Virus record (IMG/VR): IMGVR_UViG_3300009130_001184
Span: 1-45,233 of that record
Strand: one strand, 5' to 3'
Source of the DNA: a virus
Length of the DNA stretch: 45,233 bases
Below are positions 11,102 through 18,219 of the stretch, one piece after another (the first letter of the stretch is position 1; each line of letters begins with the position of its first letter). The notes under the pieces are model-generated. The model did no database searches and was not told the DNA's origin. It saw only the letters and a list, made by a program, of their open reading frames with translations. Made by a program: the position numbers and the translations under genes.

Positions 11102-13330
11102 GTGGATCACCATTGCGTTTGCACATCATCGGGCGATTGCGAGTTCTTCCGCCGCAAGATGAACTCGCGTGAGCACGATATCTGTAGGGGTTACGACCGA
11201 AACGGTGACCAGACGATTTCTCCAGATCGACGTGACGCCCATATTGTCCATTGGTGGCAGCAGGCTGCGAATGCGGCCGGGCTCGGCGATCAGGTGAAGC
11301 GTTTGACGGACGCTGCCGGTATTCGGCAGTGCGGCGGATGCCAGAGCCGGCAGGCCGCGATGAATGTCGCTGCACCGTCGTCGAGCTGGCTCGCTCGAAC
11401 GGCAACGTCGCTGGTCGATACCGTCTTGCGCAAGCAGCCGGAGCAGCAGTTGCCGACACCGCGGCTAGACCATGAGGCATGGCAGACCAGTACGGCAGAC
11501 GTTATGCCGACAAAAATTGCGACAGCGACAGCGACACCGTTCCCCGTCGAACTGAGATGGGGCGAGCAAGCTACGTCGGCTGTACCGACTGCTCTGTACG
11601 ATCCACCTGATGGCTCGCCCATCCCGTTTGTCTATATCTACTGGGCAACCGGCGCACAGGGCGACGAGTTGCGATGGAGCCAGCGATCCATCCATAAGTA
11701 TCTCGACCGGCCGGCTGAATTCATCGTGGTCGGCGCGAAACCTTCCTGGTACAGCGGGAAATATGTACCCGTGCGACGAGTACCGTTTGGCCCGAATCGG
11801 AGATATCGCGATAGTTTGAACAAACTCTATCAGGCGTGCATGTCTGACGCGGTTCCGGACAATTTTTTCTGGATCATGGACGATGTGTATTTAATCACAC
11901 CAACCAGTTTCGCCGAATTGCGCCGACCGCGACATTATGGCCACATACCTGCCTCAAAAATCGGCACGTACAACGTCAGCAACGGATGGCACAAAGTTAA
12001 ATGCAAAACGTTCGCGGCAATCCATTCGCACGGCCTTCCATGCCATGAGTGGGGCACGCATCTGCCGCACTGGATCAACAAAAAACGATTTTTGGAGATC
12101 TGGAAGAAATACGATCTGGCAAACCAGGTGTTTACGTGGGAATTGATTTACGGTGCCGAGTTTTATGATCTGGAAGAGGCGCGACATTCTCGCGGATTTT
12201 TGAATCGATATCTCAAAGCGAAAGATCTGGACGGGCTCAGCCGCGACACGTCCGTGGCGATAAACAACGGAAACGGGGCATGGAGAGAACCGCTGCGAGC
12301 CTATCTGTGGACGAAACTGCGAGACGTTGACACGGGAGTTGACACGGGCGAGGTAGCCGATCCGATATGGGCGAAAGTGCCTGCAAAAATCGCTACGCCA
12401 CCGCCAGCGAAATCAGTCGCGCCCTCGCTGGCAGTCATCTCGACACATTTCAATCCAGAGAGCTGGGACCATACGCGACGCAACGCTCGGCGATTCGTCG
12501 ATTATTGCGAGCAGTCCGGTGTCCGTTTATTCATGGCGGAAATGGGCTTCAATGCCGATTTCGTATTGGAGTCGGGACCGAATTGCCACATCACACGGAT
12601 CCATGCTGATCGTGATCGCCACACTCTATGGCAAAAAGAACGTCTGCTCAACATTCTCATCGAGCAGTTGCCGCCGGAGATCGAGCACGTCGCTTGGGTC
12701 GACGCTGACGTGCAGTTCGAGCACGCCGATTGGCCTTTGCGAATCGTCAGCGAGTTGCAGTCGCACAAGGTCGTGCAATTGTGGGATGACGTGCACGAAC
12801 AGCTACCAGACGGCTCACGCTCAGATTGGGTAGCCAAGCCGAGCGTGCTGTCAGGCTATCTGGCCAGTGATCCGAACTTTTTCCAGTTCAACAAATTTCA
12901 CCCTGGTTTTGCGTGGGCGATACGCCGCGAGACGCTGACGAAAATCGGGGGACTCATGGACAACAACATACTCGGCGGTGCCGACGCGCAGATGTGTCGC
13001 GGGTTTTTCGGCAAGGCGTTGTTCAGTGATAAACTTTTGTCTGCCGCGATGTTGAGATCCGTCAACGCCTGGAGCGATCACACGTTTTCTGAAGTTGCTG
13101 GCAATGTCGGCCTGGTCGCGGGGCATTTAATACATCACTGGCATGGCGACCGTCGCGACCGAAAATACGTCGAGCGCCTGCGTTGGTTGTCTGCATTCGA
13201 TCCGCTGATGGACGTGGAGATCGATCCGGAAACGCAGTTGTGGCAGTGGACAGAGTCTGCGAGACGACAGAAGGCGGAACTGGTGCAGCGAGTAACCGAT
13301 TATTTTAGGCTGCGGAGGGAAGATGGCTGA
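11102..13330 (+). CDS. Two-domain glycosyltransferase
   Basis: 742 residues from a GTG start. The N-terminus is Cys-rich (CVC at 5-7, C13, then CGGC at 77-80), probably a small metal-binding region. A first GT-A-like domain spans about 175-400 with VYIYWATG near the start and the acidic motif WIMDDVYLI at 258-265, resembling Stealth/capsule-type transferases. A second GT-A domain begins near 448 (LAVISTHFNPESWDHTRRNA) and has a DxD motif in HVAWVDADVQF. Both probably use nucleotide sugars with a divalent metal. A methyltransferase gene overlaps its end. Possible roles are decoration of virion proteins, phage DNA or host surface sugars; the substrate is unknown. Confidence 0.8.
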   Translation: MDHHCVCTSSGDCEFFRRKMNSREHDICRGYDRNGDQTISPDRRDAHIVHWWQQAANAAGLGDQVKRLTDAAGIRQCGGCQSRQAAMNVAAPSSSWLARTATSLVDTVLRKQPEQQLPTPRLDHEAWQTSTADVMPTKIATATATPFPVELRWGEQATSAVPTALYDPPDGSPIPFVYIYWATGAQGDELRWSQRSIHKYLDRPAEFIVVGAKPSWYSGKYVPVRRVPFGPNRRYRDSLNKLYQACMSDAVPDNFFWIMDDVYLITPTSFAELRRPRHYGHIPASKIGTYNVSNGWHKVKCKTFAAIHSHGLPCHEWGTHLPHWINKKRFLEIWKKYDLANQVFTWELIYGAEFYDLEEARHSRGFLNRYLKAKDLDGLSRDTSVAINNGNGAWREPLRAYLWTKLRDVDTGVDTGEVADPIWAKVPAKIATPPPAKSVAPSLAVISTHFNPESWDHTRRNARRFVDYCEQSGVRLFMAEMGFNADFVLESGPNCHITRIHADRDRHTLWQKERLLNILIEQLPPEIEHVAWVDADVQFEHADWPLRIVSELQSHKVVQLWDDVHEQLPDGSRSDWVAKPSVLSGYLASDPNFFQFNKFHPGFAWAIRRETLTKIGGLMDNNILGGADAQMCRGFFGKALFSDKLLSAAMLRSVNAWSDHTFSEVAGNVGLVAGHLIHHWHGDRRDRKYVERLRWLSAFDPLMDVEIDPETQLWQWTESARRQKAELVQRVTDYFRLRREDG

Positions 13331-13892
13331 CTATACGACGAACTGGACCGCCAATCGGGCAGACGATTGGCTCCGGCTGATCGGCCATTTGCAGGGCACT
13401 CCGTGTCGAATACTGGAAATCGGCAACTGGGAAGGCCGTTCGACGAACTGGTTTTTGTCCAACTGTTGCCAGCACCCGAACTCCGAACTTCGAGCGGTCG
13501 ATCCGCATCCTCGTCCAGACCGCTACAGCCGATTCCTGTCGAACGTATCGGCAAACGAACACTGTTCGCGATTACAGATTTTCCGGGGCAGGTCGTCGGA
13601 TATCTGTGGGACCTGGCCGCGAAACACTTTCGACGCTGCCTATATTGACGGCAGCCACGAGGGGCTCGATGTGATGACCGACGCGGTACTGTGCTGGCGA
13701 CTCCTGCGACCGGGCGGAATTATGATCTTCGACGACTACCGATGGAAAGGTGATGGCCGCCGCAAAGTGCTTCCGCGGCATGCTATTGACGCCTTCGTCG
13801 AACTGACTGCGCCGTGGGCAACCGTGGTGCTGCACAAGTATCAGGTCGCCGTCCAGAAAACACAGCCGCGAGACGCAAAGACGGACGGCTAG
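13323..13892 (+). CDS. Class I SAM methyltransferase (Methyltransf_24)
   Basis: 189 residues. SAM-binding motif I is ILEIGNWEGRST (about 30-41), motif II has an acidic AVDPHPRPDR, and the FDAAYIDGSH and LRPGGIMIFDDY motifs are those of the Methyltransf_24 family (PF13578), which often act on sugars, glycolipids or small molecules. GGAGGGAAG directly precedes the ATG, which lies eight bases inside the end of the double glycosyltransferase gene. The coupling suggests that the sugar transferred by the neighbour is O- or N-methylated here. Confidence 0.85.
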   Translation: MADYTTNWTANRADDWLRLIGHLQGTPCRILEIGNWEGRSTNWFLSNCCQHPNSELRAVDPHPRPDRYSRFLSNVSANEHCSRLQIFRGRSSDICGTWPRNTFDAAYIDGSHEGLDVMTDAVLCWRLLRPGGIMIFDDYRWKGDGRRKVLPRHAIDAFVELTAPWATVVLHKYQVAVQKTQPRDAKTDG

Positions 13893-14125
13893 GCGCGGGC
13901 TTGGCGCGGGCTTGGCACCTCCTCCACGAAGGTTACACCCTCGACCACTGGCTCGAAGTTCCGAATCATGTACTTGGCATCCAGAGCCATCGGGACTTTG
14001 TAAATCCAGTAGCTGCCGCCGTAGTGGTCAAGTGCGTCCATCAGTTTTGTTAGCTCTGCCTTAGTCTCGGCAACCCGCCAATAAACTGAGGACGAGCCGA
14101 ACCAATGAGTGTCTTGAGCTGCCAT
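13889..14125 (-). CDS. Small unknown protein, single-gene cassette (moron candidate)
   Basis: 78 residues on the minus strand, opposite to all neighbouring tail genes. AAAGGA lies nine bases before the ATG, and a consensus sigma70 promoter lies 57-85 bases upstream of it. The protein is aromatic-rich (WFGSSSVYWRV, then GGSYWIYKVP) with no signal peptide or known domain. Its last codons are made of the 11-bp GCGGGCTTGGC repeat. Its own strong promoter, reversed orientation and place between the late operon and the integrase fit a moron, a gene expressed from the prophage that often benefits the host. Function unknown. Confidence 0.75.
   Translation of the reverse strand: MAAQDTHWFGSSSVYWRVAETKAELTKLMDALDHYGGSYWIYKVPMALDAKYMIRNFEPVVEGVTFVEEVPSPRQARA
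13895..13916. repeat. Two GCGGGCTTGGC repeats
   Basis: Two tandem copies of the 11-bp unit GCGGGCTTGGC at the 3' end of the small minus-strand gene. The same unit occurs in the same orientation at 14408-14449, so the cassette between them is flanked by direct repeats. Confidence 0.9.
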
Positions 14126-14393: not shown

Positions 14394-14410
14394 GTTCGCG
14401 AACGTTCGCG
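14387..14410. repeat. 24-bp perfect palindrome
   Basis: CGCG followed by two copies of AACGTTCGCG reads the same on both strands over 24 bp. It abuts the GCGGGCTTGGC array. A related GTTCGCGAAC occurs at about 14338-14347. No T-run follows, so it is more likely a protein-binding site than a terminator. Confidence 0.85.
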
Positions 14411-14449
14411 GGCTTGGCGCGGGCTTGGCGCGGGCTTGGCGCGGGCTTA
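14408..14449. repeat. Tandem 11-bp repeats GCGGGCTTGGC, four copies
   Basis: Three full units (14408-14440) and a fourth ending in A (14441-14449). The same unit occurs twice at 13895-13916. An 11-bp period places each copy on nearly the same face of the helix. Confidence 0.92.
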
Positions 14450-14457
14450 CAGATTCC

Positions 14458-14512
14458 GGTGTCTAAACGGTGTCTAAACGGTGTCTAAACGGTGTCTAAA
14501 CGGTGTCTAAAC
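14458..14512. repeat. Tandem 11-bp repeats GGTGTCTAAAC, five copies
   Basis: Five perfect head-to-tail units. The integrase stop codon lies in the fourth unit, so the array straddles the 3' end of that gene. The unit length is the same as in the adjacent GCGGGCTTGGC array although the sequences differ. Confidence 0.95.
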
Positions 14513-15677
14513 CGCTGAGTTGCTTCGCGATTTCCACCAGTTCGACCGTTTGTTTTTCGACATAGATGGCCGTCGTTTCCAGCCGGGCGTGGCCGAGCCA
14601 TCGCTGAGCCGCCTGCTCGCCGAGCGTCTGGCTGATTTCAGTAGCAATTGCGTGCCGGAGTTGAAGCGGTGTCCAGCGTGGCACGTGCGCTCTGTCGCAC
14701 GCCTGTTGAATTGACTGTCGGTATGTGTCCGTCGTGTAGTCACTTCGCCGCTGATCTCGATGCTTGAGCGTCTTAGTCCGCTGCCGCTCCAGTCGCTTCA
14801 CTTCGCTGGGGTACTGCTTTGTCTTGCGTTTTGAGTTCTGCCGCTTTTGCTCGTACGCCCACTCAGACGACTCGCGAGGATCGAAGCAGTAGGTGCCAGG
14901 ATGACGGTCTAGCCACGGCAGTAGAATCTCCTGTGCAGCTCTGGGGATGGCCTTCACCAGTGACTGCCCGCGGTGCGAATTTTTGTGCTGCTCCGGTCGG
15001 TATAGCCAGACCTCGCCGGCAGTGTCGATGTCCATCGGCCGCATCCGAATTACGTCCTGTGGACGCATCCCACACAGATATTGGATCTGCACCATCGCAG
15101 CGACTGGCGGCGGCAGGATTGGCAGCGTAGCCCTCACGTCTGCCATGTTCGCCGGCTTGACCGATTCTGGATCTTTGGCCGCGGACTTGCCGGCCCGTAA
15201 CCCCTGCACAGACTCTGCGGCTGTCAACACTGACGCGTCAATCAGCTCACGAGATACCAGCCACTTTAGCCACTGACGCAGATGCCGGAGCCGCCGATTG
15301 CACGTCGATCGCGAATAGCCTTTTTGCACTAGCCACTGTTGCCAGACGAGAATTTTTTTTGGCCCAAACTGGCTGATCGGAGTCTCGCCGTAGAAACCAG
15401 TGATCTGCTCAAGCATGATCCGATGCGCGCTGAAATCCTTGGTGCTGTAGTAGTTTTCGGCCCATTGCGCGTAGCTGTTTGCCAGGTCGTGGATCTTCGC
15501 CGGCGAACCCAGCACCAGAGTCGACGGCTCGTTGCCCTGCGCCATGATTTGAGCAATCAGTTGCTTGTATTGCTCCTTGCTGGCGTGCGTGTTGTAGCGG
15601 CCCAAGTAGGTCCGCTTTCCGCGGTATTCGATGAACGCTCGGCCATCTGGGTTCTTGCGATATTTAGGCACTCGCAT
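14496..15677 (-). CDS. int: Tyrosine-family phage integrase
   Basis: 393 residues on the minus strand. An N-terminal arm/core-binding part (SAM-like, about 60-170) precedes the catalytic domain. Catalytic Arg I is in YLCGMRPQDVI, Arg II in LQLRHAIAT, the W/H box in AAQRWLGHARLETTAIY, whose tyrosine is the nucleophile. The usual His of the HxLRH box is Leu here, a known weak point of the tetrad worth checking. It would integrate the phage at tRNA-Arg(CCG), since an attP core lies 114 bp before its start. An inverted pair of 11-bp sites just upstream of the ATG could bind integrase and also repress the gene. The 3' end runs into an array of 11-bp repeats. Confidence 0.93.
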   Translation of the reverse strand: MRVPKYRKNPDGRAFIEYRGKRTYLGRYNTHASKEQYKQLIAQIMAQGNEPSTLVLGSPAKIHDLANSYAQWAENYYSTKDFSAHRIMLEQITGFYGETPISQFGPKKILVWQQWLVQKGYSRSTCNRRLRHLRQWLKWLVSRELIDASVLTAAESVQGLRAGKSAAKDPESVKPANMADVRATLPILPPPVAAMVQIQYLCGMRPQDVIRMRPMDIDTAGEVWLYRPEQHKNSHRGQSLVKAIPRAAQEILLPWLDRHPGTYCFDPRESSEWAYEQKRQNSKRKTKQYPSEVKRLERQRTKTLKHRDQRRSDYTTDTYRQSIQQACDRAHVPRWTPLQLRHAIATEISQTLGEQAAQRWLGHARLETTAIYVEKQTVELVEIAKQLSGLDTV

Positions 15678-15692
15678 GACAGGCCGCCCCCC

Positions 15693-15716
15693 GAATCGTA
15701 TCGACTGATACGATTC
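15693..15716. repeat. Inverted pair of AATCGTATC arm-type sites
   Basis: GAATCGTATC, a GACT spacer and GATACGATTC form a perfect 10-bp inverted repeat. The right half is an exact reverse copy of the AATCGTATCAG repeat found beyond the attP core. It lies 16 bp upstream of the integrase start. Confidence 0.8.
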
Positions 15717-15790
15717 CAGTTGCAGATTGGCGAGTCACCCCGTAACCCATAACACCCCACTCGCAAACAAATAGATTACTCATAATGAAG

Positions 15791-15832
15791 TACCCCCGGG
15801 AGGATTCGAACCTCCAACCTTCGGCTTCGGAA
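15791..15832 (-). other. attP: attP core: 3' half of tRNA-Arg(CCG)
   Basis: Read on the minus strand, the 42 bases are a tRNA from anticodon loop to discriminator: loop TTCCGAA with anticodon CCG, 3' anticodon strand GCCGA, variable loop AGGTT, T-stem GGAGG, T-loop TTCGAAT, CCTCC, acceptor strand CGGGGGT, A73. Bases before the loop do not pair with GCCGA and there is no D-arm, so it is not a complete tRNA. Such a fragment restores a host tRNA gene on integration, which marks it as the crossover core. Confidence 0.9.
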
Positions 15833-15971
15833 TTTTCAGTTCACTCGAACGACTGAACACCCTTAAACCTATACTCCAGAGAATGTTGCGGCGTTTTCAG
15901 GTTCTCGATGAGTCTCAGTCGGTCTCGCTGGACATCGCGAAAACTCAACGTTTTCGTATCCCGAAACTGGC

Positions 15972-15993
15972 AATCGTATCAGAATCGTATCAG
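15972..15993. repeat. Two AATCGTATCAG direct repeats (arm-type sites)
   Basis: Two perfect tandem copies of AATCGTATCAG, 140 bp from the attP core on the side away from the integrase. Reverse-oriented copies lie on the other side of the core. Likely integrase arm-binding sites. Confidence 0.8.
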
Positions 15994-16490: not shown

Positions 16491-16802
16491 ATGACCGACA
16501 TGACCTATGTGCCAATCACCTCAGCCGGCCGATTATTCCCGCATCCGCCTGGCCGCTCAACTCTGGCCCGCTACGTGTCACGCGGCCTGCGCGGCACGCG
16601 GCTGCGAGTGGTGCGGTCTGCCGGCCGGTGCCTGACTACACAGCAGTGGGTAGACGATTTTCTGGTCGCGACGAGCGACCTGCAACGAACGCAAGGGAGT
16701 GCAAGTGTCAGCAATCACACAAAAAACACGATCAGCCCAACGCCAATCTCAGCCAGCCAACGCCTCGCCGCCGTGTCAGCCGTGTCTTGTGCCGAGTTGT
16801 GA
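16491..16802 (+). CDS. DUF1580-like small DNA-binding protein
   Basis: 103 residues. Residues 8-57 follow the pattern I associate with DUF1580 (PF07618), a planctomycete family with a MerR/excisionase-like winged helix: PITSAGRLFP, then GRSTLARYVSRGLRGTRLRV and a C-terminal strand before a short helix (CLTTQQWVDDFL). The rest is Ser/Thr-rich and probably unstructured. As the first gene of the rightward operon it could be an excisionase or transcription regulator. No ribosome binding site precedes ATG 16491; ATG 16500 is an alternative start. The family call is from memory. Confidence 0.6.
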   Translation: MTDMTYVPITSAGRLFPHPPGRSTLARYVSRGLRGTRLRVVRSAGRCLTTQQWVDDFLVATSDLQRTQGSASVSNHTKNTISPTPISASQRLAAVSAVSCAEL

Positions 16803-18051: not shown

Positions 18052-18061
18052 TCCGGGCGGT

Positions 18062-18145
18062 GCGGGCGTAGCTCAGTGGTAGAGCAACGAATGGTCTTTG
18101 ATCCTCCTGACCAATCGTGACGCGGGTTCGATTCCCGCCGCCTGA
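18062..18145 (+). tRNA. tRNA-like RNA with abnormal anticodon arm
   Basis: Acceptor GCGGGCG/CGCCTGA pairs except position 1-72 (G-A), TA at 8-9, D-arm GCTC-AGTGGTA-GAGC and T-arm GCGGG-TTCGATT-CCCGC are perfect. Between them are 35 nt instead of about 22. They do not form a 5+7+5 anticodon arm; they form a 10-bp hairpin with one A-A mismatch (ACGAATGGTC / GACCAATCGT) and a 12-nt loop TTTGATCCTCCT. The anticodon cannot be assigned; TTG in the loop would be Gln. It may be a decayed, remodelled or intron-like tRNA. It follows ssb by 10 bp. Confidence 0.6.
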
Positions 18146-18219
18146 ATCAGAGACTGAGTCTCTGAATCTTGAGCAACGTGCTCGCTTGTTTGCCACAGTC
18201 TGCCGAGGCTGGAGCAGTA

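Follow-up and report, generated by a model that had tools for sequence, protein, structure and literature searches.

The stretch of viral DNA analysed here (hereafter the window, 45,233 nt) is recorded as a linear virus contig and contains replication, terminase, and portal genes. The features considered in this report, with their proposed designations, are as follows:

14496-15677, minus strand: tyrosine-recombinase integrase gene (int), 393 aa, PF00589 E=2.9e-15, reading frame intact
15693-15716, no strand assigned: putative P′ arm, two inverted arm half-sites forming the palindrome GAATCGTATC-gact-GATACGATTC
15717-15790, minus strand: linker between the core and the P′ arm; the three-way junction of most relatives is absent here
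15791-15832, minus strand: putative 42-bp attP core, an exact match to positions 32-73 of tRNA-Arg(CCG), position 73 being the discriminator
about 15953-15960, plus strand: possible third P-arm half-site TTCGTATC, a weak 7/8 match
15972-15993, plus strand: putative P arm, a perfect tandem pair of AATCGTATCAG with an 11-bp period
16491-16802, plus strand: DUF1580-like protein, 103 aa, E=1.8e-4 (21.5 bits, below the Pfam cut-off of 24.4)

The DUF1580-like gene lies beyond the P arm and points away from it. Elsewhere in the window, there is a phage-borne tRNA-Thr(GGT) gene at 18061-18148 (ARAGORN; Rfam 41.8 bits), and the middle of a 382-aa frame at 31502-32650 matches a 5′-3′ deoxyribonucleotidase family, whereas the last third of that frame matches dATP/dGTP pyrophosphohydrolase and endolysin families.

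The 42-bp block TTCCGAAGCCGAAGGTTGGAGGTTCGAATCCTCCCGGGGGTA is present as a single copy in the window and begins two nt 5′ of the anticodon of the tRNA-Arg(CCG) sequence. In a collection of 84,980 species, the exact 42-mer was found in 3 genomes, and in all three it forms the 3′ portion of a full tRNA-Arg(ccg) gene; two of these genomes, both MAGs, are titled uncultured Planctomyces, and the third is simply called "bacterium". The initial annotation had equated the core with this tRNA from the anticodon loop to the discriminator and had proposed that planctomycete genomes would contain a tRNA-Arg(CCG) gene ending in the same 42 bases, and both statements held. It was found that ARAGORN reports no tRNA at 15791-15832 in the window, so the 5′ half of the gene is missing, as it should be in an attP. 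A 35-bp core pattern was absent from all of the other viral contigs scanned.

The tRNA-Arg(CCG) genes at two of the three loci with the exact 42-mer, L002 and L003, are followed by palindromes of other arm types and by matches to the three-way-junction model described below, and therefore these sites appear to be occupied by other elements. At the third locus (L004, in genome G003), no palindrome, integrase, or three-way-junction match was found downstream of the tRNA-Arg(CCG) gene, and this locus looks like an empty attB. When the 5′ half of the L004 gene was joined in silico to the phage side, a full tRNA-Arg(ccg) was obtained, and the opposite junction gave no tRNA. The core is thus a tRNA 3′ end from which the gene is rebuilt on integration, as in other tRNA-integrating elements. 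The search for a tRNA-Arg(CCG) gene followed by the integrated phage succeeded only in part: the tRNA genes exist, but an integrated copy of this very phage was not found.

The 11-bp sequence AATCGTATCAG occurs exactly at 15705-15715 (minus), 15972-15982 (plus), and 15983-15993 (plus), and nowhere else in the 45 kb; this is 3 occurrences in comparison to 0.01 expected, and 0 of 100 shuffles reached 3. Four arm copies had originally been claimed. The tandem pair at 15972-15993 and the copy at 15705-15715 are exact, but the segment at 15694-15704 (AATCGTATCGA) matches at only 9 of 11 positions, with two mismatches. The integrase side carries an exact palindrome in which 4 nt separate two 10-bp arms; its center is 86 bp away from the 3′ end of the tRNA and 27 bp ahead of the start of int. 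Sites of the same sequence are therefore located on both sides of the core, as in a lambda-type attP. The arm palindrome was also seen in two further viral contigs, neither of which carries an integrase, and these occurrences were put down to chance. Separately, there are 11-bp tandem arrays at 13887-13916, 14407-14448, and 14457-14512, at or beyond the 3′ end of int, with CGCGGGCTTGG at two places and five copies of CGGTGTCTAAA; their period equals that of the P-arm pair.

The integrase consists of an N-terminal beta/helix domain (residues 1-47), a core-binding domain (about residues 62-160), and then a catalytic domain. The catalytic residues are R205, K232, R341, H363, and Y372, of which R205, K232, and R341 are invariant in the family, and H363 and Y372 are nearly so. 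The first His of the HxxR motif is replaced by Leu338 in the window and mostly by Asn in relatives, which makes the activity uncertain. The structure model (pLDDT 84) has beta strands at residues 13-18 and 21-27 and a helix at residues 31-47, and its best fold match in the PDB is full-length lambda Int, although the superposition is loose (TM about 0.5, a large rmsd, and an identity of about 14% in the structural alignment). As modelled, the window integrase is a three-domain tyrosine recombinase, with the catalytic residues and the predicted N-terminal arm-binding, core-binding, and catalytic domains expected of an arm-binding (heterobivalent) recombinase. A single-protein scan of viral contigs and a tblastn search of phage records gave no relative of this integrase.

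The attP of phage lambda and its Int (PMC4880445) share with the window the arm-type sites that flank the core and the plan of a small N-terminal arm domain followed by core-binding and catalytic domains. Unlike lambda, the window has a tRNA gene as its target and a single inverted pair at P′; its arm sequence is different, and the integrases are about 14% identical. The label "lambda-type" therefore fits the plan, in which arms flank the core and the integrase is heterobivalent, but not the P′ side or the low similarity to lambda Int, and the site is better described, on its sequence, as a lambda-like tRNA attP whose P′ arm is a palindrome. The KplE1 integrase IntS, an enterobacterial integrase unlike that of the window, acts at argW, and it shares integration at a tRNA-Arg gene and an attL that overlaps the int promoter (PMC2951348). 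In that study, negative autoregulation is predicted for the configuration in which int lies downstream of a codirectional tRNA, and the arrangement in the window, where int would follow the tRNA on one strand and attL would cover the int leader, matches it. Tyrosine recombinases with an arm-binding domain (Smyshlyaev et al. 2021, PMC8138268), such as the P4 cluster, share the AB, CB, and CAT domain plan and tRNA targets; the term "Planctomycet" has no match in the main text of that paper.

Of the 170 genomes searched in the order, 91 contain relatives of the window integrase (E <= 1e-20). From the best matches within this one order, 30 loci were taken for a survey of the family, on MAG contigs that are short. 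A complete tRNA is located beside the integrase at 25 of the 30 loci, mostly tRNA-Arg but also Val, Ala, Pro, Phe, Asn, Met, and Lys, with the tRNA 3′ end pointing to int in the same direction. At 22 of the 25 tRNA-adjacent loci, a palindrome is centered 83-87 bp from the tRNA end, compared to 86 bp in the window. The palindrome sequence is lineage-specific (for example, AAAGTGGTAG, CTCCGTAA, and AATCCGGTAG). The description of the window's arm sequence as new was thus right, yet arm sequences vary between lineages across the whole integrase family.

Both element ends were located in four chromosomes (G093, G091, G152, and G017), giving elements of 11, 24, 26, and 40 kb. In each, the tRNA 3′ end is directly repeated at the two ends of the element, as core repeats of 44-47 bp that start at tRNA position 31-33, close to the 42-bp core of the window. 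Before the far core, each has 2-4 arm half-sites, often in tandem with a period of 10-12. Over 11 att sites, 16 far-side half-sites were seen in comparison to 2.64 expected, a number reached by 0 of 1000 shuffles. Five more distant viral att sites (L070, L072, L073, L074, and L083) had no far-side half-site of the simple form, and the far ends of the elements in G006 and G094 were not found within 60 kb. The integrated ends of relatives agree with the predicted target, as they map to tRNA 3′ halves, with a core that spans almost the same positions and arms laid out in the same way; neither hosts lacking such a tRNA 3′ half nor prophage ends elsewhere were encountered. In the G017 element (locus L063), a second three-way junction is present right after the right-hand core repeat, at about 11475-11551 (model match 11509-11551), which suggests tandem elements at one tRNA-Lys.

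The relationship between arm sequence and integrase was evaluated in 30 family members by partial correlation, which removes shared ancestry only partly. With the remainder of the protein held constant, half-site distance correlated with N-domain distance (partial r 0.20, P 0.006), and this was also so when the window clade was removed (partial r 0.26, P 0.0006). There was no correlation between the half-site and the rest of the protein with the N-domain held constant (P 0.70, or 0.47 without the window clade). The half-site sequence thus appears to covary with the N-terminal domain of the integrase and not with the remainder, and we infer that this domain probably binds the arm sites.

A decayed sister of the window integrase is present in G003, the genome that also contains L004. 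The first 51 residues of this relic, which is split between contigs C487 and C320 (L014/L015) with ends that overlap by about 55 bp, are 86% identical to the window integrase. A complete tRNA-Arg(TCT) lies 109 bp from the start of the relic, and between the two is the palindrome ATCGTATC-n4-GATACGAT, centered 82 bp from the tRNA end. The DNA identity to the window is 84% over the N-domain and palindrome and about 70% over the remaining int sequence, as expected if the N-domain and palindrome form one functional unit. Among 398 genomes of the class, 2 contain this 16-base palindrome; the second copy has neither an integrase nor a tRNA beside it and was taken as a chance occurrence.

In most relatives, a three-way junction (two hairpins inside a stem) lies about 14 nt past the tRNA, between the tRNA 3′ end and the palindromic arm, for example at about 2780-2830 of L023 and in about 30 related loci. 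A parse as a three-way junction beat nearly all shuffles in 31 of 45 leader segments, and a covariance model built from 7 members gave 26 matches in the loci compared. Double changes were seen in 12 of 13 pairs, and 0 of 500 shuffles reached any of the observed covariation measures; the alignment was fitted to the model, which favors it, and slid controls were far lower. In eight genomes, there were 15 matches to the model, 12 directly after a tRNA and 11 at loci that include a whole or partial integrase. The excess of G-U over A-C pairs (39 versus 15, uncorrected for base composition) leans towards a junction that acts as RNA. A search of Rfam with four loci gave no match at the gathering score (L023 gave only microRNA models far below the cut-off), and we found nothing on point in the literature on such a junction.

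A junction in the window itself was rejected, as its parse was no better than that of shuffles (p 0.56) and the fold z was +0.7. The junction is likewise absent from the sister locus L018 and is present in L019. On the tree, presence and absence switch 8 times, which is not clearly fewer than with shuffled labels, and so there has been either repeated loss or replacement of the junction or the absence calls are noisy.

Taken together, we put at roughly 90% the probability that 15693-15993 is the attP of a temperate planctomycete phage that integrates at tRNA-Arg(CCG) by means of an arm-binding integrase. This reading draws on the core, the arms, the domain plan, the target gene, the matching junctions of relatives, and the covariation of arm and N-domain. 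The integrase N-domain would read the half-site AATCGTATC(A) as an inverted pair at P′ and as a tandem direct pair at P, and the remaining domains would act on the 42-bp core, such that Int may bridge arm and core sites by analogy with lambda (PMC4880445). The recombination partner would be the anticodon loop and 3′ half of the host tRNA-Arg(CCG) gene, with the crossover probably within the anticodon loop, because the core starts there in the window and in four relatives. At the left junction, the phage copy would restore the whole tRNA, with the P′ arm and a codirectional int downstream of it, and the right junction would carry the P arm; the host tRNA gene would be left unbroken by the insertion. 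Because the P′ palindrome is about 27 bp upstream of the int start, P′-bound Int probably represses its own gene. The DUF1580-like protein is, by position, a candidate excisionase.

We consider it unlikely that the core is an attP flanked by operators of a phage regulator or excisionase in place of Int arm sites. A palindrome 27 bp upstream of int is operator-like, and the DUF1580-like gene lies beyond the tandem pair, but integrated relatives have half-sites in similar places on both sides of the core, and the spacing of the palindrome is fixed to the tRNA end over 22 loci. Operators also fit poorly with a half-site that covaries with the integrase N-domain and with a G003 relic in which the N-domain and palindrome block is 84% identical, versus about 70% elsewhere in int.

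We find it very improbable that the palindrome serves chiefly as an RNA hairpin or terminator of a tRNA-int transcript. Its inverted repeat is perfect, a lysogen would transcribe the region, and in most relatives the palindrome is preceded by the RNA-like three-way junction; however, the far side has the same motif as a tandem direct repeat, which is unable to form that hairpin. We give very little credence to a decayed or chimeric element whose tRNA fragment and repeats are leftovers that no longer have a function. The window is a metagenomic-type virus contig, no integrated copy was found, and decayed relatives are known, but the 393-aa Int frame is intact with R, K, R, H, and Y retained, the core and tandem arms are perfect, and replication, terminase, and portal genes are encoded.

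If 15693-15993 is an attP that works in this way, it predicts, to the base, the gene into which an uncultured planctomycete phage inserts, the junctions that it forms, and its arm sites. The literature on planctomycete attachment sites yielded nothing on point, and we found no earlier joint description of the att layout that, judging from the sequences compared, many planctomycete mobile elements share, with putative integrase-binding sequences specific to each lineage. We tentatively raise the possibility, which we think has less than an even chance of being right, that these planctomycete elements make up a single large family that combines a swappable arm code read by the N-domain with, in most members and not in this phage, a conserved RNA three-way junction that immediately follows the captured tRNA, is cotranscribed with it, and controls int expression or recombination. 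As a rule, a tRNA 3′ end, a palindrome about 85 bp on, and then int would mark one end of a mobile element in many planctomycetes. The paired record of arm sequences and N-domains could help to decipher how such domains choose DNA, and the family is a possible source of integrase and att pairs for planctomycete genetics.
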